NCBI RefSeq assembly: GCF_014196625.1
Contig: NZ_JACIDZ010000015.1
Location: forward strand, 62,001 to 126,000
Source: Martelella radicis
GTDB taxonomy: Bacteria; Pseudomonadota; Alphaproteobacteria; Rhizobiales; Rhizobiaceae
DNA: 64,000 nucleotides
Direction: 5' to 3'
The notes below the pieces were generated by a model. It was not told the DNA's origin. It saw nothing but the letters and a program-made list of their open reading frames with translations, and searched no databases. Numbering within the stretch: the first letter of the stretch is position 1; each line of letters begins with the position of its first letter. Made by a program: the position numbers and the translations under genes. Positions 32,800 to 57,868 of the stretch are shown here, in pieces.

Positions 32800-34518
32800 C
32801 TATATCAGAAAAATGACAGGTTTTTTTCGAAATGCGCTTGCATTCCAAATCTGAAGGCCGTAGAAGCCCTCTCGCACGCCGCAGACAACAGCGGCGCTTC
32901 GCAAGGCCAAGCGCTCGTAGCTCAGCTGGATAGAGCACCAGACTACGAATCTGGGGGTCGGGAGTTCGAATCTTCCCGAGCGCGCCATTTCACATTTTGA
33001 CGCAAAATTCTCCAAAAACCTAAACGGAACAGACGTTTGTGGCGTTCGAAACCCGTTTTCACGGCTGTAGGGCAAACGCGATGCAAAGGTAAGTTTCAGA
33101 ACCGCCCGCTTGTCCTCCAAACGCTCGGAAGTCCAGAGTTTGCAAGGGTTTGACAGAAACAGCATGGCGCGTTCGAACATTTCCTCAAAGCTGTGTTTGG
33201 GAACCATGCCGTTCGTGCGTTTTTCTGCCAGAATCAGCTTTTCCTTCTCAAGCTTGGCAATACGTTTCTCATAAGCACTAATCGCCGTGGTGCTGTCGGA
33301 TTCGACAATCCGATCCACCAGAAGTTCGATCTGCTTCTCGATTTCGGTTTCCTGTTTCTGTGCGATAATCTTCGCCGCCTCGGCCTGAGACAGACGAGCA
33401 GACCACGCTTTCTTGAACATAGCTCGCGTGAGGTCGTAGAGCCCTCTGGTTGGCTGCATCCCATGCAGAAGCTCTGCGAAGGCGTCTTCGATCCGGTCGC
33501 GCGGGATCGACTTGCGATGGCTCTCGCATGCACGGTTGTGGCAGAAGTAGTAGGGGTGACGCTTGCCCGTGCTGCTCTTCGACCAACAGGCCGTCAATGG
33601 CTTGCCGCAATCGCCGCAAGTGACAAAGCCGCGCAGGGGGAAATCCTGATTGATATCCTTGCGCGCCGGAGCACGGGCGCCACCCTTGAGACGGGTCTGG
33701 ATTTTGTCGAAGGTCTCAAGCGTGATGAGACCTTCATGCTTGCCCTCACGCAAGGAAATGTCCCATTTCGGAGCCTCGACATAGCCAGCATAGACAACGC
33801 GGTCCAGCATATCCCGGATACGCTGATTGCGGATTTGGCCCTTCGGCAGGTCTTTTGGAAAGGCGGGCTGCGTTTCAAGGAAGCGTTTGACTTCCGCTTG
33901 CGTGTCGAAGCGACCCGAGGCATAACCTTCGAGAGCTTCCTGCACCAGCGAGGCGATAGGCTCGTTACGGACAAGGATTTTGCCGTGTCCGTCCGCTCGT
34001 CCGTATTTGAAGCCTATCGGTGGCTGGAATACCCAATAGCCGTTATAGCAGCGGGCTTTCATCCGATTCAGCGTCTGTTCCCGGTTCTTGCGTGCCTGAT
34101 ATTGTGCGGCCGAGGCCTGAATATATTCGTTGAATTCGCTGTCGGCATCGTCCTTGAACTCCATGGAGGGAGATTCCAGAATCCCGCCTGCCTGTTTGAT
34201 TGTCTCGCGCAATTCAAAATGGATCGGAACACGGCGGGCGAAGCGCGACACCTCATCAATGATCACGACATGCGGATCGCCACTATTACCCTGCAAGAAG
34301 GAGATCAGCGCGTTAACACCCGGTCGGTCACGCCGTTGACCGGTCAGGTCGTCGGTAAAGACACCAACGACATCATAGCCGCGATACTCGGCATACTGCC
34401 TGCATCGCGTCTCCTGTGAGCCGAGACCGTCGCCGCGGCGAACCTGTGCCTTGGATGACACGCGACAGTAAATGACCGCCTTGTTGCAATTGTGGTGGGG
34501 TTGATGATCGAAACGCAT
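32800..34518 (-). CDS. Large serine recombinase (element integrase)
   Basis: This 572-aa recombinase, as read in the integrated state, has a resolvase catalytic domain (about residues 12-155, nucleophile Ser21 in YCRVSSKAQ, then DDLTGQRRDRPG). A recombinase domain (about 165-275), a zinc ribbon (CGDCGKPLTACW ... CHNRACESH, about 298-335) and a coiled coil (about 385-425) follow. The natural protein probably ends differently. From residue 511 (MARSGRFELPTPRF) onward the frame is the antisense of the tRNA-Arg gene and its upstream flank, up to a stop at 32,800. In the excised circle the same frame would continue into the 45-codon ORF at 57,728-57,865. It is the last gene of a nine-gene minus-strand operon. 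Confidence 0.9.
   Translation of the reverse strand: MRFDHQPHHNCNKAVIYCRVSSKAQVRRGDGLGSQETRCRQYAEYRGYDVVGVFTDDLTGQRRDRPGVNALISFLQGNSGDPHVVIIDEVSRFARRVPIHFELRETIKQAGGILESPSMEFKDDADSEFNEYIQASAAQYQARKNREQTLNRMKARCYNGYWVFQPPIGFKYGRADGHGKILVRNEPIASLVQEALEGYASGRFDTQAEVKRFLETQPAFPKDLPKGQIRNQRIRDMLDRVVYAGYVEAPKWDISLREGKHEGLITLETFDKIQTRLKGGARAPARKDINQDFPLRGFVTCGDCGKPLTACWSKSSTGKRHPYYFCHNRACESHRKSIPRDRIEDAFAELLHGMQPTRGLYDLTRAMFKKAWSARLSQAEAAKIIAQKQETEIEKQIELLVDRIVESDSTTAISAYEKRIAKLEKEKLILAEKRTNGMVPKHSFEEMFERAMLFLSNPCKLWTSERLEDKRAVLKLTFASRLPYSRENGFRTPQTSVPFRFLENFASKCEMARSGRFELPTPRFVVWCSIQLSYERLALRSAAVVCGVREGFYGLQIWNASAFRKKPVIFLI
32911..32987 (+). tRNA. tRNA-Arg (anticodon ACG)
   Basis: This is a 77-nt cloverleaf. 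The acceptor stem is GCGCTCG with CGAGCGC, the D-arm is GCTCAGCTGGATAGAGC, the anticodon stem CCAGA/TCTGG holds the loop CTACGAA (anticodon ACG), and the T-arm is GGGAGTTCGAATCTTCCC. The discriminator is G, and CCA is encoded. Its 3' end is the integration target of the element that follows. The 255 nt before it contain no gene; a T-run at about 32,736 could end the kinase transcript. Confidence 0.97.
32982..32991 (+). repeat. attL core candidate
   Basis: GCGCCATTTC covers the last six bases of the tRNA gene and four beyond. The same 10-mer lies at 57,859-57,868 in direct orientation, where it is also preceded by CCGAG as here (one base of difference in spacing). Confidence 0.6.
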
Positions 34519-34536
34519 GATTTGCCTCCTTCCGGC

Positions 34537-34845
34537 TTACTCCTCTATTTCTGTTTGATCCTTGCTACCTCGAATATCGGTTCGAGCGCCTTTGACCTTG
34601 TTGCCTTCGTCGGGCGCTAGCGCGGCCTCCGTGATGGCGTTCATGGCCTGTTGCGTGGCCTCGATCCCGAAACCTATATCGACGAATATCAAAACGATGT
34701 TCCACAGCGTTTCGATAAAAGCCTGCTTTTCCGCTTCCGAGATATCCACCTCATCCAGAAACTGCTGGTATAAGGCGACATCCAACTGGAGGCCTGGTGG
34801 TGCCGTTTGTCGGGCGGTGCCCGTTAGTTTTTCCGTGTGGGTCAT
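34537..34845 (-). CDS. Small conserved protein preceding the recombinase
   Basis: This 102-aa acidic, mostly helical protein starts at MTHTEKLTG; a longer in-frame start exists but lacks support. The middle (about residues 28-70, LDEVDISEAEKQAFIETLWN) looks like a compact helical domain; the tail is charged. It ends 18 nt before the recombinase gene, so it is cotranscribed and could be a recombination directionality factor or another recombinase partner. That role is a guess from position only. No DNA-binding motif is evident. Confidence 0.65.
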   Translation of the reverse strand: MTHTEKLTGTARQTAPPGLQLDVALYQQFLDEVDISEAEKQAFIETLWNIVLIFVDIGFGIEATQQAMNAITEAALAPDEGNKVKGARTDIRGSKDQTEIEE

Positions 34846-34973
34846 AGTCCGGTCCTCAATTTGACTGTCTGAAACGCGCCCCTTGGGCGGTTTCGCGATT
34901 GACCCGGAACGGAATACGAACATTTTAGAGGTTCACGATTCCGGATCAAAGAAATTTCTGCAATTTATCCGCA

Positions 34974-35315
34974 TCAAAATCCCAGCGTTGGGCTGGTTGA
35001 AGCTTCGGCCTTTGCCTGCTGTTCGCGGTCCTGGGCCCTGAACCTGCCGATGGCGCGATAGGCCTCACTGGCAAGGCGCTGGAGTTTCAAGAGCTCGGTG
35101 CCCTGAAAGCTGCGGGCCTCCGCCACTGCTCCTGTGGTGGGATCGGTATAGACCCGCTGGAAGGTCACGGCGTAAAACGCCTTGCCGTCCCCGGCATCAT
35201 TGCGCCAGACTTTTGCGGAAACCGCGCCATCGCGGAAACTGGCGACCGGCGCTTTGTGGACCGGTTGGCGGGTTTGGCTTTGTTGTTCTTGTCGTTCTTT
35301 GTTTTGCTGCTGCAT
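34974..35315 (-). CDS. Small element protein, RDG/W-x-ND family (copy 1)
   Basis: This 113-aa protein has a Gln-rich N-terminus (residues 1-20), a core with SFRDGAVSAKVWRND and TFQRVYTDPTTG, and a helix ELLKLQRLASEAYRAI. It is a clear paralogue of the gene at 35,868-36,188, which shares RDG, W-x-ND, F-x-G-T-[DE]-LLKL and a following helix in the same order. Function is unknown. Such genes recur in alphaproteobacterial mobilizable elements and plasmids. It lies in the middle of the minus-strand mobilization operon. Confidence 0.7.
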   Translation of the reverse strand: MQQQNKERQEQQSQTRQPVHKAPVASFRDGAVSAKVWRNDAGDGKAFYAVTFQRVYTDPTTGAVAEARSFQGTELLKLQRLASEAYRAIGRFRAQDREQQAKAEASTSPTLGF

Positions 35316-35502
35316 TGTCTGTTCCTTTCATTGACGGGTGAACGAAAGGCGCAATCCTATTGCTGCGGCGCGGAATTGTGCAATTATAAATAGAAATAAT
35401 TTATGCACTTCTATCTATAATCTATGTCCTTTTCCGCTTCGGCTGCGGCTTTGCGCCGGGTTTGGAATTTTATTCCAAACATGCGGGCGTATGCGCCTGC
35501 GT

Positions 35503-37915: not shown

Positions 37916-38176
37916 CTACCATTCGGAGCGGCGATTAACGAAACCGCCGCTGGTCGTGATAATCCGAGGCTTGATCCTGGCGGCCCACGAGAGGCAGATG
38001 ATCGCGATTACGCCGCTGTAGAAGATGAAGCCGCCGAGAATGCCGCTCGGTACGGATTGAAAGAAAAACGCGATCAGGATCGAAATCCCGCAGATAGCGG
38101 TGGCGATGCCGCCGATCCCGTTGAGCATGTCCTTGACCTGCTTGCGGAACGGGACATTCTTGCTTGCATGCGTCAT
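37916..38176 (-). CDS. Small membrane protein (operon with coupling protein)
   Basis: This 86-aa protein has two hydrophobic segments (about residues 19-40 and 44-65), a short Pro-Ser-Gly turn between them, and basic flanks. It ends 67 nt before the coupling-ATPase gene. Two helices joined by a short turn is exactly the layout missing from the N-terminus of that ATPase. Unknown family. Confidence 0.65.
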   Translation of the reverse strand: MTHASKNVPFRKQVKDMLNGIGGIATAICGISILIAFFFQSVPSGILGGFIFYSGVIAIICLSWAARIKPRIITTSGGFVNRRSEW

Positions 38177-38200
38177 GTCGAACTCCTCTCGAGTTTCGGT

Positions 38201-38365
38201 TCAGGATTTGCTGAGATAGGCCCGGGCGCAGAGGATCACGCCGAGGACGATGGCGGTGCCTGCCGCTCCGCCGGATTCGGGATGGTCGAGGGAGAAGGCA
38301 ATGCCGCTTGCGATAAACGCCATGCCGCTACCCCAGAGCCATGCGGTGAATTGTTCGCCTGTCAT
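38201..38365 (-). CDS. Very small membrane protein (54 aa)
   Basis: The frame reads MTGEQFTAWLWGSGMAFIAS and ends ARAYLSKS, with two hydrophobic stretches (about residues 8-24 and 32-48). A purine-rich GGAGGCG site lies just upstream of the ATG at 38365. It is sandwiched between two other small membrane-protein genes, 24 nt and 14 nt apart, which supports its reality despite its size. Confidence 0.6.
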   Translation of the reverse strand: MTGEQFTAWLWGSGMAFIASGIAFSLDHPESGGAAGTAIVLGVILCARAYLSKS

Positions 38366-38379
38366 TGGACGCCTCCCGC

Positions 38380-38685
38380 CTACACCGCCATGAAGCGCCA
38401 GCCGTAGCGGGCGAACGAAATGCCGATCAGGGAGAGCATGATCGAGATCGAACGGGAGAGCCCCAGAAAGACGAGGCCCGCCGTCAGGATCGAATGGCAG
38501 ACCCAGACAAGGCCCTCCACATCCTGTCCGTAAATTCCGGTAAAATACCGAACCGCCCAGGGGCCGGTCAGATCGATGATCCCCGGCGCAACGCCTGCGG
38601 TGAGATAAGCCGCGATACCGTTCGATATCACCTTGTTCGAAAGGCTCTGGGCTGTGTCGGGCCTGTTGTTTGCCGTCCTGTTCAT
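38380..38685 (-). CDS. Small membrane protein, first gene of the mobilization operon
   Basis: This 101-aa protein has a hydrophilic N-terminus (MNRTANNRPDTAQSLSNKV) and three moderately hydrophobic segments (about residues 22-42, 58-73 and 75-95). It is the promoter-proximal gene of the minus-strand operon that runs through the coupling ATPase to the recombinase. The start at 38685 is preferred over a longer frame that would extend into the divergent AT-rich gene's leader. Unknown family. Confidence 0.6.
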   Translation of the reverse strand: MNRTANNRPDTAQSLSNKVISNGIAAYLTAGVAPGIIDLTGPWAVRYFTGIYGQDVEGLVWVCHSILTAGLVFLGLSRSISIMLSLIGISFARYGWRFMAV

Positions 38686-38876
38686 GATACTATCCTCTAT
38701 CTCGTGCCGAAGGTGAAACCTTTGATCAGATTTCACAGGACCTGTTTTCTTCATCACAAGATTAGAATAGCGAAGCCTATTGTCACCGCTTGACAAAACG
38801 CATCCAAAATCGGGGACTTCAGTCCAGATTTTGCCTAAGAAACACCGACGGAATCCAATTAGACCGCTTTGGAAAA

Positions 38877-39836
38877 ATGGCTCTGAACTACAATAAGAAA
38901 AATTTGCTATATTTATTGCTTTGCGCAAATTTATACAAAGGAAGAAGTGGTTTTGTTTCCGGCCTTGTCAACTATTGCAATGATATTGTTGACAAGCATA
39001 ATAAATTTAAAAATACTGGAGATGCAAAAGGAAAAATATCTAGATCTATATTCTATAATTATTTTAGTGAAATTGACGAAATATCAGGTAATTACAATAT
39101 AGAAGATACTATCGATTTAGCTAATAGAATATCTATTAATTATATTGACTTATCTCAAAAGTATATGAACAAATTTAATGATCTTATTTTTTTATCGCTT
39201 TATAACTACTTAGAGAGTAACGGTTTTATTCATATCGACGCAGGAATTCGGTCGATAGAGGGTGTTAACGATCCGCTTTTCTTTTCGTTGTCATCTTTTC
39301 TAGATGTCACAGTTTCAGATGTCGGAAATGACGAATCTCTTGTCGGTACTTTTGCTGTTCTTCGCCCATCTCTCCGGGCTCCTGGGAAAGCAATCGTGTC
39401 TTGCGCAAAGATTAGAATTGGTGCCCTTGGTGTTATGCACTATGAAGAGATAATGCACTATAGATTCTGGGGCGCAAGTTGGGTTCGACAATACTTCCAA
39501 GGGTACGCTCTTCACAGAAACGGAAAATATACAATTATAACAAAAGATGACAATACAAAACACATTCAAGTAAGTTATCTAAATGTTAAGCAAAGAAGTT
39601 CATTTAATTCAGTTGATGCGTTAGCGGGATCATATAATGGATTTTCGCCACATGCCGCGTCTGGAATATTTTCTAGTGGTATTGTCATTTATAGAGCGAA
39701 ATCACTCGCAAAACTGGATAGATACGACCTCAAGAAATGGCGATGTGGCTTATCACCATCTTTTGGATTGGTTTCTTTGGAAGCCATCGATCCACAAATC
39801 AGAAAATATCTAGCCTTGCGCGTCCCGGAAAGCTAG
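38877..39836 (+). CDS. AT-rich protein of unknown function
   Basis: This 319-aa soluble protein starts at MALNYNKKN; a start at 38790 would add 29 residues that overlap the divergent promoter region. Asn, Ile, Lys and Tyr are abundant, and composition is much more AT-rich than the element's mobilization genes, so it was acquired separately. No motif is recognized. The first 100 residues look helical, the rest mixed alpha/beta. Its stop overlaps the convergent 99-aa gene by 4 nt. The location within a defence-bearing element makes a defence role possible, but there is no sequence evidence for it. Confidence 0.7.
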   Translation: MALNYNKKNLLYLLLCANLYKGRSGFVSGLVNYCNDIVDKHNKFKNTGDAKGKISRSIFYNYFSEIDEISGNYNIEDTIDLANRISINYIDLSQKYMNKFNDLIFLSLYNYLESNGFIHIDAGIRSIEGVNDPLFFSLSSFLDVTVSDVGNDESLVGTFAVLRPSLRAPGKAIVSCAKIRIGALGVMHYEEIMHYRFWGASWVRQYFQGYALHRNGKYTIITKDDNTKHIQVSYLNVKQRSSFNSVDALAGSYNGFSPHAASGIFSSGIVIYRAKSLAKLDRYDLKKWRCGLSPSFGLVSLEAIDPQIRKYLALRVPES

Positions 39837-40132
39837 ATGTAATGGTAATAACCATCGTCATTACTATGATACTCAGCAATTGCTTTGTCTGTCTCGACAG
39901 GATTTATTTTTTGAGAAATGAGCATATCTCTACGTTTCTCCAGCTTCTCCACTCCAATCCAGTCCGTCGCGGTCAGGTCGTGAAATTTTCCTTTTAAATC
40001 TATATACCCTTTGGATTCTTGTAGGGCCGTATTGTTACGGAATACCGCCATTAATCCTGATTTCAAGGTAGTTTTCTGTATTTTTAAAAAGGTACAATAT
40101 TCACTTTCTATTTTTTTAAATTTTTTATCCAT
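39833..40132 (-). CDS. Small AT-rich protein of unknown function
   Basis: This 99-aa soluble protein has a Lys-rich N-terminus (MDKKFKKIESEYCTFLKIQK), DLTATDWIGVEKLEKRRDML in the middle and an acidic/aromatic C-terminus (NDDGYYHYI). It is convergent with the previous gene and overlaps it by 4 nt. The 168 nt upstream, up to the divergent gene at 40,301, are extremely AT-rich and should hold both promoters. No family recognized. Confidence 0.6.
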   Translation of the reverse strand: MDKKFKKIESEYCTFLKIQKTTLKSGLMAVFRNNTALQESKGYIDLKGKFHDLTATDWIGVEKLEKRRDMLISQKINPVETDKAIAEYHSNDDGYYHYI

Positions 40133-43482: not shown

Positions 43483-43665
43483 TCATTCCAGAACAGAAAA
43501 AACATATCGTCGACCAATCATTCGCAATGATACTTCGCTATCCCTGCGCCTGTCGATCCCCTCAGGAGAATCAAAAGCTTTCGTATCCTTGAAGCCCACG
43601 TATGGTCTTCCGATCACCGATCCGCAGGACGTTCCTGCTCCGCTCGATATAGCTCGCTGCATCAT
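43483..43665 (-). CDS. Possible 60-residue protein coupled to the DUF2235 gene
   Basis: The frame starts in an ATGA overlap with the DUF2235 stop and encodes a polar protein (MMQRAISSGAGTSCGSVIGR at the start, SLRMIGRRYVFSVLE at the end). Coupling is the only positive evidence; a competing plus-strand frame covers the same bases. Reported at low confidence. Confidence 0.3.
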   Translation of the reverse strand: MMQRAISSGAGTSCGSVIGRPYVGFKDTKAFDSPEGIDRRRDSEVSLRMIGRRYVFSVLE

Positions 43666-44822: not shown

Positions 44823-44840
44823 TCATACCCCCCAATTCGT

Positions 44841-47232: not shown

Positions 47233-48444
47233 TCAGCTATTTGGCCCGCTCTCAGCGGGAGTCCAAGCGTTCATACCTTTTCGTATTTGATCTGAGCTTG
47301 ACAGGAACGCCACACTAAGCCTGGCCCGCGTTGTAGCCACATAAAAGCGGTTGATTTCTTTATCCGTTTTCATTCCACCGAAAGCGGCTTCGTCGCCCGA
47401 AATATATCTCTGCTGTCGCGGTGTCGGAATGATAAGTGTTCGATCAAACTGAAGACCTTTCGCTTCTCCAAAGTTGAAAGCTTCGCGACTAGCGCACAGC
47501 TCGATCGCAACATCCCTCCGATCTCTCAAAATCGTTGGCTTAAAAAGCTCGATGTAACCTTCAACATGCTCTCTGCTTACCGCAAACACCCCCTGATGCT
47601 GGTCATCAACTTGGCCCACGAGCGATTTAGTCGGAGGCAACTTCAGTGCCGCGTGTATGCCATCTGCAAATTCGCAGATCGGTGTAATACAGCGATGACT
47701 GACAAACCGGTTTTCTACATCGAAACCCAACTGTTTAAACGTCTCCAGTTTTTCCGCTATCGTTCCGGGCTTCTTGCTATCGTGATGAGTAACATAGATT
47801 GTCTGGCGAAAATCACCTACAGACGTAATGTTTAGCTCTGCCAACATGGATAGCTTTTCCAAAACCACATAATCCCAGCCAGTCAGATCTTGCACTTCAT
47901 CGATGATTACGGCGCTGTATATCTCTGCTAGTCGCTCGAGAGCGTATCCCGTCTTTATGGTTTTTCGTCCCGCTTTGCGCTGCGAGCTAGTTTCCGGAGC
48001 TTCAGCTATCCGGCAGACAAGCTTCGACAGGAATGCTGTGTGGGCCTGGTCTCTCGAACTTGTCAGGAAATGTTTCGCGTTGAGTTTCCCATCACGCTGG
48101 TATTCCTGGCGCCCCCGAATTTGAAATTTCTGATTTGGAAGCTTGTGGGGACTGCTCTCGTTAAAATTTATATTCTCGATCCGCTTTTCGAAAAAAGGCA
48201 ATTGATAGGGGCGAATTAGATCCTCAAGGAGAAAGGTGAACCAGCCCTTTATGTGAATCCTGTTCGGAACAGCGCCCAATCTCCGAGCAACGCGGCGGTG
48301 AAGCTCAATTTGGTTGTTCTGCGTGTAAGTAAGGATCAACACGGCTTCCCCGGCTTCATATCGCCCAACCGCCTCGTCAATAATCTCTCTTGTTTTCCCC
48401 GCGCCAGCGCTTGCGAGCACAAGTTTCCTAGTCGCCAAAATCAA
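47233..48444 (-). CDS. gajB: UvrD-like helicase, Gabija GajB-like
   Basis: This 403-aa superfamily 1 helicase-like protein has Walker A ASAGAGKT (residues 11-18), the DEXQ-type motif II IDEVQD (181-186), motif III VGDFRQTIY (about 207-215), and a final VATTRARLSV motif VI (about 375). It is shorter than described GajB proteins (about 490 aa). It overlaps the OLD-family nuclease gene by 17 nt. In Gabija, GajB is thought to sense DNA or nucleotide changes and activate GajA. The pair could also be described as a class 2 OLD nuclease with its helicase. Confidence 0.85.
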   Translation of the reverse strand: MILATRKLVLASAGAGKTREIIDEAVGRYEAGEAVLILTYTQNNQIELHRRVARRLGAVPNRIHIKGWFTFLLEDLIRPYQLPFFEKRIENINFNESSPHKLPNQKFQIRGRQEYQRDGKLNAKHFLTSSRDQAHTAFLSKLVCRIAEAPETSSQRKAGRKTIKTGYALERLAEIYSAVIIDEVQDLTGWDYVVLEKLSMLAELNITSVGDFRQTIYVTHHDSKKPGTIAEKLETFKQLGFDVENRFVSHRCITPICEFADGIHAALKLPPTKSLVGQVDDQHQGVFAVSREHVEGYIELFKPTILRDRRDVAIELCASREAFNFGEAKGLQFDRTLIIPTPRQQRYISGDEAAFGGMKTDKEINRFYVATTRARLSVAFLSSSDQIRKGMNAWTPAESGPNS

Positions 48445-50083
48445 GAGCCTCCTTCAAATAGTCAGGAAATATAATGTCCTCCGCGCTGTCGAAGATTCTC
48501 ATGGCAGTGCTAACTTTTTCCGCACCACTGTTATTACCCTGATATCGTTTCCTCAGAAATTCTTGCCTTTCAGCTTTATCTTCTGGGAGGGCACTGTAAT
48601 CTGCAAAAACTTGCGGTCCTAGCACTACGGCAGCAAGCTTATTCAACTGCTCCAAATCCGATGAATTTGCCTCAATCAGAGCGGGCTCCAGTGAATGCAA
48701 ATTGTTATCTTCTGGAGAGAACACTTTGATGAAATCGAAACCTTCAAAAGGCGCTTTCCATGAGTTAATGTTTGCCGCATAATCATGATCATTGTCTTTG
48801 ACAACGTGAGTTTTGTTTCCCAGATGGCGAACAATGTTCAGGTAGTTCCTGAAGCCAATGCCGCGTACTACTATGATGTCGATGCCGTCCGCTTCTGGTA
48901 ATTTTTTCGTATTTTTGAGGTATATTTTCTTGAGCAAAAGCTCATCTGAAGGCCCCTCAACCAATATGACTTTCGAACAGAGAACTATTCTCAGAGTGTC
49001 ATAACCAGGCAGACGTTTCAGTGTTTTTACTGTGTCACTGTCCACCTCTGAAAGACGCTTGTAACCGTCCGCAAGCAAGCAAATTTTCTCAAAACTGAGC
49101 TTGTTGAGAACATAGGAACTATGGGTGGAAACGAACACTTGTTGCCCCTCCGAATTACCTTCGATGTAATCCACCAATTTCACCAAGTTCATGTGTGACA
49201 GGTGGTTCTCGGGCTCCTCAATCATTACAACATGTGTGTTTTTCGCCTTCTGCCAAAGTGCGAGCTTGATTTGAATCTGGTGTTGCTCTCCTTTGCCAAT
49301 CTGAGAAAAGGGAACATCGTCCACATTGAGCTGCAAGTTGTTTTCCCAAGTCGTCTTTGAGGCGAAATCGACTGAAATTTGAAGGTCTTTATCTGTAACG
49401 GTGTTATCGCTGTCCAAGTCGGCGTTGACCTTCTTGATGTCCGGCTCCTCATCAAATTTTTGCTTTAACCTTCTAAAGTTCAAATTCAGAAGTGAGCGAG
49501 TATTCGGCTCAAGGTTTTTGGTGACAATGTCGGATATATATTTCTTGGAGCCAAAATTCGGATGCAATCGCGGTGGGTCGACGAACAGGCACTTCATTTG
49601 CTTGGAAAAGCTATTTTGAGCCTTCCAGCCGAAATTGAACCATTCAACCTGATAGAACTCGATTGGTATTGTCTGAAGATCGGGATTTTCTTTGAGAAAA
49701 TCCGCATAGGCTGACCCCAACTGATCGTTGAAAGCAATTCGGACAAAAAGGCCGTCCCGGTTCTCACCGAGGGTGTTTTTGTTACCCTTGTGCTCCGGGC
49801 ATCCAACCAAATACGCCTCGACAAGAATTTCAGGGAGCTTATCCTGAGTTTTATCACTCGCCACAAACTCCTCTGTGCAGGAATTGTTGAACAGATCAAT
49901 AGTGAGGTTGGAATCAATTGATTGACCGCGGTAGCTTTTGTTCAAAACAATATCAATTGCTTCGAGAAGACTGCTTTTCCCGGATGCATTATCACCGACA
50001 AGGATGTTTATATCTGAATTGAAATCAAACAGACTGTCACGGAATCTTTTAAAATTTTTAAGTGCAAGCTTTTCAATATGCAT
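48428..50083 (-). CDS. gajA: OLD-family ATPase/nuclease, Gabija GajA-like
   Basis: This 551-aa protein has an ABC-type ATPase (Walker A GDNASGKS at 30-37, signature QIGKGEQHQ at 261-269, Walker B HVVMIEEPENHLS around 284-296, H-loop STHSSY at 319-324). A TOPRIM nuclease follows, with E376 in VILVEGPSD and D430/D432 in VVKDNDHD. This is the GajA/OLD architecture: an ATP-regulated DNA-nicking enzyme. Length is close to GajA of the known system (about 580). All catalytic motifs seem intact. It is AT-richer than the backbone and followed by the GajB-like helicase gene with overlap. Confidence 0.88.
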   Translation of the reverse strand: MHIEKLALKNFKRFRDSLFDFNSDINILVGDNASGKSSLLEAIDIVLNKSYRGQSIDSNLTIDLFNNSCTEEFVASDKTQDKLPEILVEAYLVGCPEHKGNKNTLGENRDGLFVRIAFNDQLGSAYADFLKENPDLQTIPIEFYQVEWFNFGWKAQNSFSKQMKCLFVDPPRLHPNFGSKKYISDIVTKNLEPNTRSLLNLNFRRLKQKFDEEPDIKKVNADLDSDNTVTDKDLQISVDFASKTTWENNLQLNVDDVPFSQIGKGEQHQIQIKLALWQKAKNTHVVMIEEPENHLSHMNLVKLVDYIEGNSEGQQVFVSTHSSYVLNKLSFEKICLLADGYKRLSEVDSDTVKTLKRLPGYDTLRIVLCSKVILVEGPSDELLLKKIYLKNTKKLPEADGIDIIVVRGIGFRNYLNIVRHLGNKTHVVKDNDHDYAANINSWKAPFEGFDFIKVFSPEDNNLHSLEPALIEANSSDLEQLNKLAAVVLGPQVFADYSALPEDKAERQEFLRKRYQGNNSGAEKVSTAMRIFDSAEDIIFPDYLKEALDFGD

Positions 50084-50689: not shown

Positions 50690-51030
50690 TTCCACGCATC
50701 CCGCCTTGGCGGGACCGGGCTGTCGTGAACCGAGCCAGTGGTCTCGGCCATCCGGCTTCCATCCCTTGCGTTTGACGGGCCGCCTTTCGCGGCCCTTTTG
50801 CTGAGCAGGGCTCTTTTACGCGCCCTGCGATATTCCCGCTTTCTGTTTTGGGGCTTGCAGCCCCGTCCTCCGTCAAGACCAAGCCCTTTGGGCAAAAGCA
50901 TCCGGGCCGTGGCTCGGCGTTCGCCTGCGCCCGCACCACCCCTGACGCTTTTGGTCTGGACGGTTTCCCCCCTCTCTTCGCCAGAGGGGCAGATCGGTTG
51001 CATGCGCAACACGATCAAAGGAAAAAGGAA
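50690..51030 (+). promoter_or_regulatory. Structured leader of the antirestriction gene
   Basis: This 440-nt gene-free gap (50,590-51,030) is GC-rich in its second part and contains a series of hairpins: CCCGCC/GGCGGG (50,700-50,713), GGGCCGC/GCGGCCC followed by TTTT (50,777-50,799), GCAGGGC/GCCCTGC (50,805-50,828), GGGGCT/AGCCCC (50,850-50,864), GCCC/GGGC (50,883-50,893) and CCCCTCT/AGAGGGG (50,969-50,989). The second is a good intrinsic terminator. The whole looks like an RNA leader, perhaps an attenuator, and not like coding sequence. Confidence 0.5.
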
Positions 51031-51933
51031 ATGAAAACAGATGTCTATAAGCAAGTAACCGGCAAGATTGTTGCCGATCTGGAAAGGGGCGAGCTGACTT
51101 GGCTGAAGCCTTGGAGTGCTGGCAATATGGAGGGACGGATCACCAAGCCGTTGCGGCATAATGGATTGGCTTATAGCGGCATCAATGTTCTGATGCTGTG
51201 GGGCGCGGCCATCGAGGCGGGCTTTTTCTCACCCTATTGGATGACCTTCAAACAGGCCAAGGAGCTTGGCGCGCATGTGCGCAAGGGCGAGCGCGGCAAT
51301 ATGGTTGTTTACGCCAACACCATCACCAAGACCGAAGAACAGGATGACGGCAGCGAGGAAGAGCGGCACATTCCGTTCATGAAAGCCTATACGGTTTTCA
51401 ACGTTGAACAAATCGAAGGATTGCCCGAGCATTATTACACGAAGCCCGAGCCAGTGATTGACCCTGCCCAACGGATCGAACATGCCGAAGCCTTCTTTGC
51501 CGCGACCCGTGCCGATATTCGCCATGGCGGCAATCAAGCCTTTTACAGTGGTGGCCGCGATCATGTGCAAATGCCCTATTTCGAGAGCTTTCGCAGCCCA
51601 GAGGCCTATTATGCGACGTTGGCGCATGAGGTCACGCACTGGACAAAACACCCCAGACGGCTGGATCGCAGCTTTGGCCGTAAGACATGGGGTGATGAAG
51701 GCTATGCCCGTGAAGAACTGGTTGCCGAGCTTGGCGCGGCGTTTCTTTGCGCCGATTTGGAATTGACGCCCGAACCAGGCACGGATCATGCGGCCTATAT
51801 TCAAAGTTGGCTCAAGGTGCTGAAAGAAGACAAGCGCGCGATCTTCAGCGCCGCCGCCCATGCGCAGCGCGCCGCCGATTTCCTGCATGGTTTGCAAAGC
51901 GGTGCAGACACCAAAGAAGGAGCCGCCGCGTGA
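51031..51933 (+). CDS. ArdC-like antirestriction protein (zincin metallopeptidase)
   Basis: This 300-aa protein has an N-terminal ssDNA-binding ArdC domain (about residues 3-125; DVYKQVTGKIVADLERG and AYSGINVLMLW) and a C-terminal zincin-type domain with HEVTH at 199-203. A conserved REELVAELGAAFL lies downstream at about 229, probably giving the third zinc ligand. ArdC proteins protect incoming plasmid DNA from host restriction. The start at 51031 follows an AAAGGAAAAAGGA site. Its long structured leader suggests tight control, likely expression on entry. Confidence 0.9.
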   Translation: MKTDVYKQVTGKIVADLERGELTWLKPWSAGNMEGRITKPLRHNGLAYSGINVLMLWGAAIEAGFFSPYWMTFKQAKELGAHVRKGERGNMVVYANTITKTEEQDDGSEEERHIPFMKAYTVFNVEQIEGLPEHYYTKPEPVIDPAQRIEHAEAFFAATRADIRHGGNQAFYSGGRDHVQMPYFESFRSPEAYYATLAHEVTHWTKHPRRLDRSFGRKTWGDEGYAREELVAELGAAFLCADLELTPEPGTDHAAYIQSWLKVLKEDKRAIFSAAAHAQRAADFLHGLQSGADTKEGAAA

Positions 51934-52012: not shown

Positions 52013-52101
52013 TAATATGCTCAACAGGACTGAGCTTATTCGGACATATTCAAACTTGAGGTCGGTTTGAGAATCGTGTAATATACTCAATATGGCTGAG
52101 C
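52013..52101 (+). promoter_or_regulatory. AbiEi operator candidate: two 23-nt repeats
   Basis: TAATATGCTCAACAGGACTG... at 52,013-52,035 and TAATATACTCAATATGGCTG... at 52,079-52,101 share 19 of 23 positions and have the same orientation. The second covers the abiEi start codon. Each contains a CTCA/TGAG dyad. Between them lies ATATTCAAAC (52,046-52,055), which is the exact inverse of GTTTGAATAT at 51,999-52,008. Two 23-bp sites bound by the antitoxin are known for AbiE systems. Confidence 0.6.
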
Positions 52102-52946
52102 AATCTGCGTCACTATTAAACCGACTTGAGAAAGACCTCCCCGAAGGTTTGGTCGTGGATGCCGCTTGGCTGGAACAGCGCGGTATCGCCAGCAATCTGC
52201 GCGCCTACTACGTCAAGAACGGCTGGCTCGAACAGCCCGCGCGCAGCGTCTATAGAAGACCGCGCGGCACGCTGAGCTGGCAGCAAGTCGTCATATCGCT
52301 CCAGACCCTGCTTTTGCGCGCGCCGTTCTATGTCGGTGGGCGCACGGCATTGGAGCTACAGGGATTCGCGCATTATCTTTCGCACGAGACTAAGACCGTT
52401 CACCTCTACGGTCCGGAAAAGCCGCCCGCATGGCTGGACAAGCTGAACCTTCCCCAGCGTTTTGTCTATCACAACAGCGCGACCCTTTTCCGCAATGATC
52501 CGATCACGCAGGGGCTTGGCAGTCTTGCCTGGAATGTCGCGGAGGGAACAGGCCGCGATCTCACCCGCTTTCAGGGCGGCAGTTTGACCTCGCTTGCCTG
52601 GGGGCAATGGGATTGGCCATTGACGCTTTCGCAGCCCGAGCGCGCCTATCTCGAAATGCTCGATGAATTGCCGCGCCATGAGAGTTTCCATCAGGCCGAC
52701 ATGATCATGCAGAGCGCAGCAAATTTCAGCCCGAGGCGGCTGCAAAAGCTACTGGTGGATTGCGACAGCGTGAAGGTCAAACGCCTGTTCTTTTATTTTG
52801 CGGATCGCCATGGCCATGCTTGGCTCAAGCGTCTGGACAAAACCGCCATCGATCTCGGCAAAGGCAAGCGCATGCTTGTCCCCGGCGGCAAGCTCGATCC
52901 GGTCTATCTCATAACCGTGCCGGAGGACCTCAATGCCGTTTCGTGA
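52092..52946 (+). CDS. abiEi: AbiEi-type antitoxin (type IV toxin-antitoxin)
   Basis: This 284-aa protein has an N-terminal winged-helix region (about residues 5-80; LPEGLVVDAAWLEQRGI and VYRRPRG) and the AbiEi C-terminal domain (about 85-280; YVGGRTALELQGFAHYL, LDELPRHESFHQADMI). In AbiE the antitoxin represses its own promoter and counteracts the nucleotidyltransferase toxin without direct binding. It overlaps abiEii by 14 nt. Operator-like repeats are found directly upstream. Confidence 0.88.
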   Translation: MAEQSASLLNRLEKDLPEGLVVDAAWLEQRGIASNLRAYYVKNGWLEQPARSVYRRPRGTLSWQQVVISLQTLLLRAPFYVGGRTALELQGFAHYLSHETKTVHLYGPEKPPAWLDKLNLPQRFVYHNSATLFRNDPITQGLGSLAWNVAEGTGRDLTRFQGGSLTSLAWGQWDWPLTLSQPERAYLEMLDELPRHESFHQADMIMQSAANFSPRRLQKLLVDCDSVKVKRLFFYFADRHGHAWLKRLDKTAIDLGKGKRMLVPGGKLDPVYLITVPEDLNAVS

Positions 52947-53856
52947 TCAATACCAGGCCCAAGTCCGGCTTCTCATGCGCCTTATTCCCATCGTGGCGCG
53001 CGAAACCTGTTTTGCGCTCAAGGGCGGAACGGCGATCAATCTTTTTGTGCGCAACCTGCCGCGCCTCTCCGTGGATATCGATCTGATGTATCTGCCCGTG
53101 AATGACAGGCCGGAGGCGCTGGCGGACATCGACGCGGCAATGAAGCGTATCAGGGGGGCAGCTCTGGCGGAACTGCCCGGCGCGCGTGTCACCGAAAACG
53201 TTCATGATGGCGCGATCCTGCGCCTTCTCGTAATGGCCGAGGGAACGCAGGTGAAGATCGAAGTCTCGCCCGTGTTGCGCGGCGTGGTTCATGAGCCTGC
53301 CACAATCCCCGTCACCGAGGCCGTGGAAGAGGCCTTCGGCTTTGCCGAAACCAGCGTCGTTTCCTTCGAAGACCTGTTTGCGGGCAAGCTGGTTGCAGCG
53401 CTGGACCGTCAGCACCCGCGCGACCTTTTCGACGTGCGCGGTCTGCTTGCCCATGAAGGGCTGAGCGACGACCTCCGCGAAGCATTCATCGTCTATCTGC
53501 TCAGCCACAACCGCCCTATGGGCGAGGTGCTTTCAGGCCGCGTCAAAGACCTTGCGAATGAATACCGCAACGGCTTCGAGGGCATGACCGAGGAGGCTGT
53601 TGCCATCGAGGAACTGATCGAAACGCAGCATGAAATGATCGAGATGCTGATCGGCGGGATGCCGGATCATCACTGTGAATTTCTCATCGGCTTCGAGCGC
53701 GGCGAGCCGGATTGGTCCTTGTTGCAAATCAGCCATGTAGCCGACCTTCCGGCGATCCGCTGGCGGCAGCGCAATCTGGACAAGCTCAAACCGGAGCAAC
53801 GATCTGCCCTAGTCGAATTGCTGCAATCTTCTCTTGAACGCGACAATAAAAGCTAA
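52933..53856 (+). CDS. abiEii: AbiEii-type nucleotidyltransferase toxin
   Basis: This 307-aa protein has the DNA-polymerase-beta-like NTase core: FALKGGTAINLF (GGTA, residues 31-34) and LSVDIDLMYLP with the two metal-binding Asp at about 48 and 50. A third-strand acidic motif QVKIEVSPVL (about 110) and the conserved SFEDLFAGKLVAALDRQHPRD (about 150) follow. AbiEii-like toxins transfer nucleotides to targets, including tRNA for related MenT toxins, and arrest growth on phage infection. It is coupled to abiEi. Confidence 0.9.
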   Translation: MPFRDQYQAQVRLLMRLIPIVARETCFALKGGTAINLFVRNLPRLSVDIDLMYLPVNDRPEALADIDAAMKRIRGAALAELPGARVTENVHDGAILRLLVMAEGTQVKIEVSPVLRGVVHEPATIPVTEAVEEAFGFAETSVVSFEDLFAGKLVAALDRQHPRDLFDVRGLLAHEGLSDDLREAFIVYLLSHNRPMGEVLSGRVKDLANEYRNGFEGMTEEAVAIEELIETQHEMIEMLIGGMPDHHCEFLIGFERGEPDWSLLQISHVADLPAIRWRQRNLDKLKPEQRSALVELLQSSLERDNKS

Positions 53857-53878: not shown

Positions 53879-54514
53879 TTACGGATCTCGTTCTCCAAAA
53901 GATCCCGCAAAAAAACTTTCAGAGGAGTAATAAATTCCGCCAGCTCTAAATATATAATCACGAAATACACGCTGTCCCTCGCTCGCAGATCTTTGAAAGA
54001 CATCAATATTTTCTGAAATTAATAGGAGAAGGGCTTCCGCTTCCGCCGAGGAATTCGATAGTATTAGAAATACGTCACTATATGACTCCGGTACACGATC
54101 AATGCCGGAAAAGAGCAAAGCAGAAGTCATCTCTTTATACCTAGGTAAAGTGGTGATATCTGAAGTAAATTCATAGCTCGCCAAAGCCGTGTAATTTTCT
54201 CTAGCTTGAGAAAAATCCGCAGCCGCGTGCTCAAGAAGAGGCAATAGACCTGAATATACTCCCATAATCATAAGCCTTTTAATCAGTTCTGACCCGCATA
54301 GAGCTTTAGAAAATTGCGCCGACGCTTCCTGATATTGTTTCATGACTTCAGAGCACTCTATAGAATCGGCAGGTAAATCTAGAGTTCCACTTGGAAGAAT
54401 GTCATCAAACCTACATTCAACAACATCATCTTGCGCGAGAGCATCTGATGAAGAATTAAGATACCCTGCAGATGACAATAAAATCATCATTGTAAAGAAG
54501 GCTGCAATACGCAT
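53879..54514 (-). CDS. Exported protein of unknown function
   Basis: This 211-aa protein has a signal peptide (residues 1-28, cleavage after ALA). The mature part is acidic and helical, with three cysteines (VECRF, SIECSEVM, ALCGSEL). The composition is AT-richer than abiE and the mobilization genes. Its start overlaps the end of the next upstream gene by 28 nt, so the two are coupled. It converges on abiEii. No family is recognized. Confidence 0.65.
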   Translation of the reverse strand: MRIAAFFTMMILLSSAGYLNSSSDALAQDDVVECRFDDILPSGTLDLPADSIECSEVMKQYQEASAQFSKALCGSELIKRLMIMGVYSGLLPLLEHAAADFSQARENYTALASYEFTSDITTLPRYKEMTSALLFSGIDRVPESYSDVFLILSNSSAEAEALLLLISENIDVFQRSASEGQRVFRDYIFRAGGIYYSSESFFAGSFGERDP

Positions 54515-55128
54515 TTTTCATAGTCTCCCCTTAACGGTCCGTTTAGTGACTGTATGCGCTCCATGACGCGATCCCTGAGTAGGCAGTGCCCATCCAGAAA
54601 GCGCTTCCTCCGGGAGCATATAACTGACCATTCGTCTTTGAGATCATATATAATTGCTAGTTGATGAAGATATTGAACGTCAGATAGGTATATATCTGAA
54701 ATATTTAATATGTTTATCTGACTTTCCTTGTTAATATATTCCCAATCATCACAATTTGCCAGCACCTCTAAATCAGATAAATTGTCTTTTATAGCATTTG
54801 AAATTTTATTTGATTGAACTTTATCTTCAAGAATAAAATTTGCCTTTATTTCATTTTGAGTTTCATTAAATTGAGCTTGCATAATAATCATCGTTTTATT
54901 TGATGTATATGCTTGCAAAGCAGAAATTATAAATAAAAGAGCGGTAAAAAATATACCTGCGACAGATGTTAACTCTATTATATTAAATCTTTTTTCAGAA
55001 ATAGATGATTGGATATTACTATCGTTGTTTTCCGACGAGGCGTTATTATATTGATCAAATTCGCTACCGTCACCGTCAGGTGGGTCGGATGTTTGACTAG
55101 CTGGCGCTGGATTGTCGCGATCTGCCAT
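54487..55128 (-). CDS. Single-pass membrane protein of unknown function
   Basis: This 213-aa protein has an acidic, low-complexity N-terminus (residues 1-48, rich in Asn, Asp and Ser), one membrane helix (about 56-76; VAGIFFTALLFIISALQAY), a coiled-coil stretch (about 80-120), and a C-terminal region with CDDWEYINKESQINILNISD and a CSRRKRF basic patch. The start MADRDNP is preferred to an ATG 8 codons earlier. It is AT-rich and forms, with its two neighbours, an envelope-located gene trio of unknown purpose. Confidence 0.65.
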   Translation of the reverse strand: MADRDNPAPASQTSDPPDGDGSEFDQYNNASSENNDSNIQSSISEKRFNIIELTSVAGIFFTALLFIISALQAYTSNKTMIIMQAQFNETQNEIKANFILEDKVQSNKISNAIKDNLSDLEVLANCDDWEYINKESQINILNISDIYLSDVQYLHQLAIIYDLKDEWSVICSRRKRFLDGHCLLRDRVMERIQSLNGPLRGDYEKCVLQPSLQ

Positions 55129-55202
55129 TTCAAGCTTCCAATTAGTGTCCAATCAAAAAATATCATGAAATCGGCTGATCGAGTATGCATAATTGATTCT
55201 AG

Positions 55203-55463: not shown

Positions 55464-55604
55464 TATAAATTCTACAATCCTCCTAAATAATATTTTTTAT
55501 ACATAGATTATTATTTGATAAGTTTCAATTAAATATCGTATAGAATTTATATTTAGAGACCTATTGCGGTTTTACTTATCGCTTTGTGCGCTGTATCGTG
55601 TTTC

Positions 55605-55784
55605 CTATGGCGACGGATCGCGCGAGCGCAGTTCAGCCTGAATATTTTTCAGTGATGCTAGCGCTTCGCGGTGCTGAAGGCTTGCCGGAGCGGTTTTGGC
55701 CAAAGTGTTGAATATTTGGTGCAACAGGCCGCGCAACTCATCAATGCGTAGGCCAGCCAGTTCTGAACGGGTGACAAGGGTCAT
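55605..55784 (-). CDS. Small helical protein downstream of the relaxase gene
   Basis: This 59-aa soluble protein (MTLVTRSELAGLRIDELRGL at the start) is predicted to be a helical hairpin. An ideal AGGAGG site lies 7 nt upstream of the ATG at 55784. It follows the relaxase gene by 181 nt on the same strand. Similar small genes accompany mob genes on plasmids, but the role is unknown. The gap before it holds several short hairpins and could include an origin of transfer. Confidence 0.6.
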   Translation of the reverse strand: MTLVTRSELAGLRIDELRGLLHQIFNTLAKTAPASLQHREALASLKNIQAELRSRDPSP

Positions 55785-55965
55785 TCTTTCCTCCTGAATA
55801 TTCAAGGAGGCCCCGACCATCAGGGCCTTTCGGCCCGTCCGCACACCATTCCGGCCATGAAGGCCTGATGGAGCTGTGGCTGACGCTGATCAGGTCAGGA
55901 GGAAAGAGACTGGCACTCCCGGAAACGGTTTGGGCTGGCGTAACGCATCATGTTGCGCGCAACGT

Positions 55966-57291
55966 CTACCGATCAAAACTCGGCCCATCGCGTGACCGGC
56001 TGCGCCGAGGCATATTCGCGTTGGCTCGCTGTTCCTCGATATAGGCTTTGCTGCGCTCGTCGGCATTGGCGGAGAAGTGCGGGCTGAGCTGCCTGATATC
56101 CGTACGCAGCTCTCTGACGGCTTCGATATGCGGCGCGCGGGCAGTCTTCGCCTGTTCCCGTTGACGCTGAGCCTCAGCAGTCCGAATCCTGGCCTGCTCG
56201 TCTGCCTGTTTGCGATCCCGCTCTTGTGCCTGTTCGGCTTCCTGCCGGTTCTGTGTTTCTGTTTGCTGACGGCGGCCCGTCAGGCGATCCCAGAGCCCAA
56301 ACAGACCATGACGGATGCGCGCTTGACGTGCTTCCTCTTCCAGTCTTTGCCGTTCGTCCTGCTGTCGGCGCAGCCGTTCGGCTTCTTTGGCCTGTTCGGC
56401 CTTCAGCCGCTCACGCTCGACAAGGGCCTGCTGACGCTTTTGCTCCAACTCCCTGCGCTGTTCCGCTTCGAGTTCCTTCAACCGATCCGTGACCTGCTGT
56501 GCGGCCTTGGTATGGGCTTCCTCGACAGACGGCAAGTCTTTGGCATCGCCAAGACGGGCGCGGACATCTTTCGCCTTCACACCGACATAACGGGAGACGG
56601 CATAAGCTTCTCCCTGATAATCGACGGCGATATGGCCGCGCCGTCCTTTGGCAAGGAAATAGCCGTGCTCTTCCAGAGCATGGGCGAAGGCCGTGGTGGA
56701 ATCCGAGGTGGCCCAGCTATCCTGAAACGCTTCCTTCACCGCGCGCGGGTCTTTTTCGGCCCGTTTGCATTGCTGCCATTGTTCCAGCGTAAAATTACGC
56801 GGATTGCGATCATGGGAATGGATCAGACCGGGCGGCATTTGCAGGTCATGCTGGATATGCAGTTCGCGTGAGACCTCCCGCAGTTTCTCATGGCTGAAGG
56901 AAAGTTGTTTGGCCGTCATGGTCTCGGCATCAATCCGGCACCAGACAGCATGAGCGTGACGGCGAAGTTCGCCGTCCGTTCCGCGCTTTTCGTGAAACAC
57001 AATGGCGCGGGGCTGTCCCTCCAAACCGAGACGCTTTTCCACCTGATCCGCCGCATCGATAAAATCCTCCGGCGCGAGTTCGGCGGAGGACGGTGGATTG
57101 ATGCTGAGCGAGAATAAATGCTGTTTGCATTTGGTGGCCCGGCTAATCGCGTAAGATTCCTGAAACGCGCCCTGAAGGTCATCGGCGATAAAGCCGCGCA
57201 GTTCATGGACATCGACGCGCTCGTTTTCCGGTTTCGCCAGATGCACGGCTAAATCCCGCGCGCCGCCGCGCTGATTGCCGTGAAGAATCAT
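55966..57291 (-). CDS. Relaxase/mobilization nuclease
   Basis: This 441-aa protein has an N-terminal relaxase domain (residues 1-200) with a histidine cluster, FHEKRG (His100) and RRHAHAVW (His112, His114), fitting the metal-binding triad of MobA/VirD2-type relaxases. A candidate catalytic Tyr is Y47. The second half (about 265-430) is a long charged coiled coil rich in Gln, Glu and Arg. It would nick the element at its origin of transfer and lead the strand to the coupling protein. It overlaps mobC by 4 nt. Confidence 0.88.
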   Translation of the reverse strand: MILHGNQRGGARDLAVHLAKPENERVDVHELRGFIADDLQGAFQESYAISRATKCKQHLFSLSINPPSSAELAPEDFIDAADQVEKRLGLEGQPRAIVFHEKRGTDGELRRHAHAVWCRIDAETMTAKQLSFSHEKLREVSRELHIQHDLQMPPGLIHSHDRNPRNFTLEQWQQCKRAEKDPRAVKEAFQDSWATSDSTTAFAHALEEHGYFLAKGRRGHIAVDYQGEAYAVSRYVGVKAKDVRARLGDAKDLPSVEEAHTKAAQQVTDRLKELEAEQRRELEQKRQQALVERERLKAEQAKEAERLRRQQDERQRLEEEARQARIRHGLFGLWDRLTGRRQQTETQNRQEAEQAQERDRKQADEQARIRTAEAQRQREQAKTARAPHIEAVRELRTDIRQLSPHFSANADERSKAYIEEQRANANMPRRSRSRDGPSFDR

Positions 57292-57731
57292 GAGACCGCG
57301 CCGCTTCTGAGGCCAAGGGCCAGGATCAGGGTTGTGCGGATCGTGGCGATATCGGCGCAGGCCTGCCGCAACTCCGCTTTGATCTCCTCATCCAGCAAAA
57401 GCTTGCGGGTTTCGGCACAGGACAGGACCTCACGCAGCAGTGGCGAAATCTCCGAGCGGCCCAGCAGGGCCAGAAGTAGAGCCAGCTCTTTTTGATCAGC
57501 GGTAGCTTGTTTCCGGCGTGGCCTGCGCTTGGCCTTATGTCCGCGCAGCACATAGTCCCGGACATAGGTGCTGAGTGGCTTGTCTCCTGCATGAGCAGCC
57601 AGCAAATGCCGCTCGTCATCGCTGAGGCGGATGGAGACCGGCGGCGTTCTCTTGCGCCGATCCGGTTTGCGGGTACGGGAAGCCCTGCGGAAATCACGCT
57701 CGGGCTTGCGAGATGCAACGGAACCGCTCAT
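57288..57731 (-). CDS. mobC: Relaxosome accessory protein MobC
   Basis: This 147-aa protein has an N-terminal basic region and a ribbon-helix-helix-like MobC core (VSIRLSDDERHLLAAHAGD, STYVRDYVLRG, about residues 32-68), then a helical C-terminus. MobC proteins bind the origin of transfer and help the relaxase. The start overlaps the stop of the 45-codon ORF before it (ATGA), and its own stop overlaps the relaxase start, giving a tightly coupled unit. Confidence 0.85.
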   Translation of the reverse strand: MSGSVASRKPERDFRRASRTRKPDRRKRTPPVSIRLSDDERHLLAAHAGDKPLSTYVRDYVLRGHKAKRRPRRKQATADQKELALLLALLGRSEISPLLREVLSCAETRKLLLDEEIKAELRQACADIATIRTTLILALGLRSGAVS

Positions 57732-57865
57732 GGCTGCGGCTCCTCGAACTCAATCTCAATATGCTGAAGTTGCTTGTTCCAATCTGCAAGCGTATCGAAA
57801 AGGGCACTCAGATCATCGAATTCTTGCGCCAACGCGTTCGAAGTTTCTCCTCCGAGGTGCGCCAT
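57728..57865 (-). CDS. 45-codon ORF: probable native C-terminus of the recombinase
   Basis: The frame begins MAHLGGETSNALAQEFDDLS and ends EIEFEEPQP, with the stop overlapping the mobC start. The ATG lies in the 10-nt repeat shared with the tRNA end. The matching ATG in the left copy is codon 511 of the recombinase, in the same frame. In the excised circle this ORF would therefore be the last 45 codons of the recombinase. In the integrated state it may be translated alone: an AAAGGA site supplied by the chromosomal flank lies 6 nt upstream. Confidence 0.6.
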   Translation of the reverse strand: MAHLGGETSNALAQEFDDLSALFDTLADWNKQLQHIEIEFEEPQP

Positions 57866-57868
57866 TTC
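57859..57868 (+). repeat. attR core candidate
   Basis: GCGCCATTTC is identical to the 10 bases at 32,982-32,991 and in the same orientation; CCGAG precedes both. The T-rich TTTTCCTTTCT that follows would be the original 3' flank of the tRNA gene. Confidence 0.6.

Follow-up and report, generated by a model that had tools for sequence, protein, structure and literature searches.

What becomes of a recombinase gene whose reading frame runs across the attachment core of the element that carries it? The question is raised by a 64,000-nucleotide stretch of Martelella radicis DNA (contig NZ_JACIDZ010000015.1, positions 62,001 to 126,000; the window). A mobilizable element of ~24.9 kb, with a relaxase, a type IV coupling ATPase (T4CP) and a large serine recombinase all present, occupies the 3' end of a tRNA-Arg(acg) gene and spans from there to a second copy of its core (Table 1). 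Comparison with relatives makes it very probable that the recombinase gene itself contains the element's attachment site (attP): in the excised circle, a recombinase extended by a C-terminal tail would form one unit with mobC and the relaxase, and integration would cut that unit.

The Recombinase Frame at the Core Repeat

The core is the 10-mer GCGCCATTTC, found at 32982-32991 and 57859-57868, with no third copy in the window. The recombinase open reading frame (ORF; 34518 to 32800) is open through 510 codons of element DNA and then through the antisense strand of the tRNA gene. Its codon 511 begins at 32988; a 45-codon ORF at the far end of the element begins at 57865, and once the cores are aligned the two are in the same frame. 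The stop codon of the short ORF overlaps the start of mobC (57731) as ATGA, and mobC overlaps the start of the relaxase gene (57291). On this geometry a sequence-only reading had proposed that excision gives the recombinase a 45-residue tail and joins it to mobC; the core positions, the alignment at codon 511 and the ATGA overlap are all right as it gave them. The bare repeat was rejected as evidence, not being significant (two or more copies in 12 of 100 shuffles). Since the 10-mer alone could be chance, the reading was tested on relatives.

Conservation of the Frame in Relatives

The recombinase has relatives at E <= 1e-60 in 51 of 394 genomes from the window's family; 38 of these 51 also have a relaxase relative at E <= 1e-15. 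Pairs on one contig and strand, picked by eye, number 28, and with the window 29. An antisense tRNA gene (Arg, Phe, Thr, Leu, Met or Ser) lies 3' of the recombinase in 26 of the 29 pairs; the exceptions are G010c and G336b, where the search gave none, and G164a, where it is 1.5 kb off. A tail is recognized upstream of the relaxase in 28 pairs by a profile built from 14 tails (the 14 seeds and 14 non-seeds, the weakest accepted being that of G161, at E 0.005); G298 is missed.

When the core is set at the 3' end of the tRNA gene (TGG..., reverse strand), all 25 scorable pairs have a recombinase frame that leads straight into the frame of the conserved tail, and the fused frame that had been proposed for the window thus holds across its relatives. 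Of these pairs 21 share the window's phase; in four (G048b, G288, G010c, G336b) the phase is shifted equally at both ends. The four unscored pairs are G164a (a stop within the recombinase), G254 (a recombinase match over 14-358 only, an ORF that ends before the core, and computed phases that differ), G161 and G298. Five of the tails (G309, G193, G074, G340, G152) are closely similar and should be counted as about one. In all 24 of the 25 pairs for which the distance was measured, the relaxase follows the core at 515-736 nt.

The notion that the second core copy arose by chance, the element having its end elsewhere, can draw on the shuffled sequences and on the want of a clean empty site (see below). 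The in-frame tail that follows the core in every scorable pair, together with the narrow range of its distance to the relaxase, makes this vanishingly improbable for the window and, by sequence comparison, refutes it at the level of the family.

A genus relative (G161:C20; L121, L173) has a near copy of the relaxase end, at 94% DNA identity up to 57790; past that point the tail peptide differs, and no core of the TGGYG type is recognized by eye. The apparent termination of the relatives' matches at residues 501-510 was set aside as no evidence, because the query itself ended at residue 510.

The arrangement of recombinase and tail is, on these comparisons, a wide family trait and not peculiar to the window locus. 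In a broader set of 80 named loci, 78 recombinase matches could be placed, and 68 of them abut a tRNA gene, with at least 13 anticodons represented. In 66 of the 68 the frame is open into the tRNA antisense strand in one and the same phase, a uniformity that is partly selection, the loci having been ranked by likeness to the window sequence. The other 12 of the 78 comprise one that is open in a different phase (L250), one that stops 2 nt before the tRNA gene (L230), two uninterrupted recombinase-tail copies (L175 and L245, described below) and eight for which no tRNA gene was found. Homologues that end naturally before codon 511, which the sequence-only reading had named as speaking against it, are accordingly not the rule: 66 of 78 read into a tRNA gene in phase. 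Across the loci L174-L253 many tRNAs have an antisense strand that is open in the recombinase frame, yielding C-terminal peptides of GFEP type when integrated.

Uninterrupted Recombinase-Tail Copies

At five loci the recombinase C-terminus and the tail are found in a single ORF. These are L175, of Oceaniradius stylonematis, with a stop near the recombinase N-terminus; L294, of G598, open for 561 codons, altered at its N-terminus and aligning with the window enzyme no earlier than residue 49; L245/L339, a 129-codon ORF on a contig of an uncultured member of the Rhodobacteraceae; L343, a 106-codon ORF on another contig of that same genome; and L295, of G738, a 205-codon ORF. A mobC-like ORF comes next in all five, and a relaxase-like ORF follows mobC in L294, L245 and L295, the three inspected for it (both judged by sight). 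The uninterrupted fusions of recombinase and mobC that the sequence-only reading had suggested seeking in relatives thus exist as five junctions, all of them with a broken recombinase N-terminus. A reading of L294 as an intact fused recombinase was rejected because of this late start of its alignment; an apparent diverged fusion, L297 (G710), was not counted, no mobC being seen after it.

The search covered 397 genomes of the order (84 with a match), 385 of the class (25 with a match, no fusion), the best 80 of 449 named loci, 10 viral contig loci and two re-inspected genomes; five is a lower bound, only matches supplied with loci having been read through. No ORF with both recombinase and tail occurs at the 10 viral loci, and a plasmid search with the recombinase returned 43 records, none of which covers 80% of the query.

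Two of the fused copies stand in arrays: further along the same strand, L294 is followed by a second recombinase that ends in a tRNA-Arg gene, and L245 by one (L188) that ends in a tRNA-Ser gene. Adjacent copies of this kind suggest mobility, and an active tailed copy within an array might be unstable. All five uninterrupted copies are damaged or altered N-terminally, as if active tailed copies do not persist in arrays.

These loci bear on the idea that the tail is a separate small gene, starting at the core ATG, whose agreement in frame with the recombinase is incidental. The core does offer an ATG in the window and 10 more of the scored elements, and GTG or TTG in a further seven; the tail ORF meets or overlaps mobC in the manner of genes in one operon, and no natural fusion has an intact recombinase N-terminus. 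Set against this is the single ORF at five loci, and the fact that 14 of the 25 tails, when integrated, are without ATG at the core: to the seven with GTG or TTG are added three with CTG and four in another phase, the same at both ends. The tails are therefore not conserved stand-alone genes. An independent gene is accordingly very improbable, and these sequences are better explained if the tail is the 3' part of the recombinase gene.

Constraint on the Tail and Its Junction with mobC

The tail measures 36-78 codons across elements (45 in the window) and bears the motif L.GE.SN.LFE.L..WE..L, which extends ~20 codons past the core. Pooled over 554 codons of 14 tail pairs, chosen by hand and partly overlapping, nonsynonymous differences (pN 0.209) are fewer per site than synonymous ones (pS 0.498), and differences at the three codon positions number 132, 115 and 211. 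By these measures the tail is under constraint at the protein level. Since the motif extends past the first eight codons, a binding site for the recombinase would not alone suffice as the explanation.

All recognized recombinase domains lie upstream of the core. Most matches of integrated relatives to a combined recombinase-and-tail profile of 128 positions end at 92-98, which is the core. The predicted structure of the fused L175 form (the part past its early stop) has a mean pLDDT (per-residue confidence) of 81.7; the tail is modelled, at low confidence, as a helix (351-375) with disorder after it, and two long helices (198-246 and 250-276) are taken, by their position, as the coiled coil that comes after the zinc ribbon in large serine recombinases. 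The 20 best fold matches in the PDB are serine integrases, some in complex with directionality factors, at TM-scores (fold similarity per query length) that are low, 0.22-0.39, the domains being flexible.

Relative to the assigned mobC start, the tail stop falls in the range -26 to +17 nt in every one of the 28 tails and at exactly -4 (ATGA) in 13, the start having been assigned as the one nearest to -4, which biases toward that value; in G336a the assigned start is in a different frame from the mobC otherwise identified there. Such regularity, and the ending of the recognized domains before the core, would be expected if the fused frame served only to couple mobC translationally, the tail peptide having no part in recombination. 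For coupling, however, the overlap would suffice, yet the peptide is conserved, with pooled pN well below pS and a motif of ~20 codons; coupling as the only function is for this reason an unlikely account.

A Proposed Exchange of Tails on Integration

The preferred arrangement, with attP inside the recombinase gene, would work as follows. attP would lie 36-78 codons (45 in the window) before the true 3' end of the gene. In the circle the unit would run, in order, from the upstream genes through the coupling ATPase, the tailed recombinase and mobC, with its overlapping start, to the relaxase. Integration at the CCA end of the tRNA gene would cut the unit at the core: the integrated recombinase would keep its recognized domains, lose its tail and read instead into the antisense tRNA strand, acquiring an end that depends on the site, while tail, mobC and relaxase would be moved to the far edge of the integrated element. 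As to the nine-gene operon that had been drawn for the upstream part of the unit, the eight genes inspected are co-oriented, and gaps of ~190 and ~200 nt among them make internal promoters possible.

From this layout we infer that the long recombinase would come from the circle and the tail-less one from the integrated copy, with mobC and relaxase made mainly from the circle. More tentatively, the tail may tune the enzyme for the circular state, either for integration or for contact with the mobilization proteins. The incoming circle would make only the tailed form, so the tailed form should be able to integrate; the integrated element would make only the other, which should therefore be able to excise, barring outside help. 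That the exchange is a directionality switch throughout the family, the tailed form carrying out integration (attP x attB, the chromosomal site) and the tail-less form excision (attL x attR, the ends of the integrated element), with relaxase expression coupled to excision, is a rather unlikely reading; on it, the state of the DNA would set the enzyme's direction. By analogy with Tn916 (PMC6540685, in the passage that treats its transcripts), excision-dependent expression of the relaxase, as the sequence-only reading had proposed, is plausible. A candidate accessory or directionality factor is the 128-residue gene directly 5' of the recombinase (34537-34923 in the window); a similar gene stands in this place in 45 of the 48 full-length recombinases from named loci that have enough upstream sequence.

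Points Against the Arrangement

Several observations weigh against an intragenic attP. There is no clean empty site in the 12 other genomes of the window genus, nor, by joined flanks, for G309 (5 other genomes) or G340 (9 others): the searches returned no joined full-length match, only flanks apart. G083 is the sole genome of its genus. The tRNA-Arg region itself is matched in 13 of 13 genus genomes searched, the window's own counted. The window genome has a further ~7 kb to the right of the element, from 57869 to ~64930, an insertion in comparison with relatives that is absent beside the tRNA gene in those compared. G161 is out of phase, its relaxase match being a 123-residue fragment; taken as a miss it lowers the score to 25 of 26. 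The tail profile finds nothing in G298. The choice of core is uncertain for G010c, G336a and G027, for which it was picked by hand: in the last two all three candidates are in phase, and in G010c the candidates chosen automatically, a word upstream of the core, miss the phase that the core picked by hand keeps. The recombinase N-terminus is not intact in any of the five natural fusions. In two of the 14 tail pairs (G020a/G336a and window/G161 C20) pN is about equal to pS.

The remaining point concerns regulation. Immediately beyond the element's edge, upstream of the tail, is a promoter-like site (57909-57880, reverse strand), one match as compared with a mean of 0.1 in shuffles. It lends some substance to the view that mobC and relaxase are served by a promoter of their own in the tail, or by chromosomal promoters, and that excision does not control them. 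The matched site, however, is in the chromosomal flank, which varies by insertion, and the interval from core to mobC is the tail alone, 36-78 codons of coding DNA. Expression independent of excision is a possibility to be taken seriously, though it is judged the less probable course.

The right-hand insertion holds, on the reverse strand at 58778-63826, a repeat-rich ORF of 1682 residues that is autotransporter-like (labelled by eye).

Gene Content of the Element

Pfam confirms the domains of the recombinase, T4CP and relaxase; PF00239, PF07508 and PF13408 are all above cut-off in the recombinase and make up the large serine recombinase domain set, in which a catalytic resolvase domain precedes recombinase and zinc-ribbon domains, and the NikA/MobC-like match is under its own cut-off (Table 1). 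Among the 20 ORFs selected for comparison with Pfam, no VirB-type protein was found; nor was any resistance family among the same matches, no resistance library having been applied. A small resolvase is among the other cargo.

Table 1. Features of the element and its attachment sites in the window
Feature	Coordinates	Strand	Basis
tRNA-Arg(acg), integration target; 3' end is the core	32911..32987	+	ARAGORN
Core copy, recombinase/tRNA side	32982..32991	+	sequence repeat
Core copy, tail/mobC side	57859..57868	+	sequence repeat
Large serine recombinase, element-encoded part (codons 1-510)	32989..34518	-	PF00239, PF13408, PF07508
Read-on tail of integrated recombinase (tRNA-Arg antisense and chromosome)	32800..32988	-	ORF; likewise in relatives
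45-codon tail, putative 3' piece of recombinase gene in the circle, with stop	57728..57865	-	in-frame conservation, constraint
mobC, NikA-like, 147 residues, ATGA overlap with tail	57288..57731	-	PF21983, 21.2 bits (cut-off 27)
MobA/VirD2-type relaxase, 441 residues	55966..57291	-	PF03432, E 2e-12
Small ORF 3' of relaxase, probably the site of the 59-codon gene of the sequence-only reading	55605..55844	-	ORF only
128-residue gene directly 5' of recombinase, candidate accessory/directionality factor	34537..34923	-	no Pfam match; conserved position
113-residue gene of unknown function, upstream in recombinase cluster	34974..35315	-	ORF
Two overlapping small genes of unknown function, 122 and 106 residues	35503..36188	-	ORFs
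VirD4/TraG-type coupling ATPase (T4CP), 542 residues	36220..37848	-	PF02534, E 2.4e-26
Two small genes, 86 and 182 residues, probably membrane proteins (by eye)	37916..38928	-	ORFs

The G+C content of the element is below that of its flanks over most of its length; the stretches 39001-40000 and 54001-55000 are at 37% each, compared with ~62% for the chromosome, and contain ORFs of unknown function. Defence-like cargo includes a Gabija-like pair, GajB (47233-48444) and GajA (48428-50083), both on the reverse strand, and, on the forward strand, an ArdC-like protein (50848-51933) and AbiEi/AbiEii (52092-53856). A protein with a Tle1-like phospholipase domain (43662-45362, reverse strand) stands beside a peptidoglycan-binding protein. 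Elsewhere in the same genome are a second recombinase of the family (L002, G000:C17:2026-3591, 49% identity), which reads into a tRNA-Thr(ggt) gene, and a further relaxase (G000:C24:46345).

Comparison with Known Systems

The 'suicidal' integrases of archaea have tRNA genes as their targets. They are tyrosine integrases (SSV1, pTN3, pT26-2) with attP in their own gene, which integration splits; the review that treats them describes self-splitting integrases only in archaea (PMC8371274, in its passages on these enzymes). The family described here shares with the SSV1 type, by sequence comparison, an attP inside the element's own integrase gene. The differences are considerable. In the archaeal tyrosine enzymes the split separates the catalytic part, and according to the same passages the fragments are inactive in vitro, whereas the present enzyme is bacterial and of serine type, would keep its recognized domains and only swap its tail, and has mobC and relaxase coupled to it.

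Integration-dependent immunity in mycobacteriophage BPs rests on an attP within the repressor gene: once integrated, the phage makes a repressor whose C-terminus is shorter than that of the viral form and differs from it (PMC4557955, in the part on the repressor). The likeness is that of an attP inside a gene whose integrated form differs at its C-terminus from the non-integrated form. In BPs, however, it is the long form of the repressor that bears an ssrA-like degradation tag, as that part of the paper states, whereas here the gene is that of the recombinase itself. The present tail is conserved, and its end, judged by eye, is unlike the ssrA tag.

The transfer functions of Tn916 are expressed from transcripts that cross the att site joined by circularization (Celli and Trieu-Cuot 1998, cited in PMC6540685). 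The gene order found here is compatible with circle-dependent transfer expression of this kind; the enzymes are different, and the passage in PMC6540685 describes no protein fusion across att. In artificial fusions of serine integrases with recombination directionality factors (RDFs), the added part can reverse the preference of the reaction (PMC5737554, in the section concerned). Those fusions are engineered, whereas the tail here is native and would come and go with integration. Integrative mobilizable elements (IMEs) with serine recombinases, such as Tn4451, are described from Firmicutes, where they lie in dispensable genes or integrate with low specificity (PMC5704250, in its account of these elements); the likeness is a serine recombinase on an integrated mobilizable element, and the difference is that a recombinase gene containing attP is not mentioned in the account.

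Searches of the open-licence literature, judged by titles and the starts of abstracts, brought up no serine recombinase whose gene contains attP; the parts consulted of PMC8627217, PMC13386836 and PMC10083194 hold no such case, and the word 'tRNA' is absent from the main text of the last.

If the arrangement is as proposed, bacterial serine recombinases gain a self-modifying gene of a kind that the review PMC8371274, in the passages cited, describes for archaeal tyrosine enzymes only. It would explain the odd antisense-tRNA peptides in which integrated recombinases end, and automatic annotation of integrated copies would miss both the true attP and the true C-terminus. Serine integrases are genome tools, and the family would offer a single-gene system for asking how C-terminal parts control their direction. 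What we call new, as read from the sequences compared, is the intragenic attP in bacterial serine recombinases and an exchange of tails that takes the place of the destructive split.

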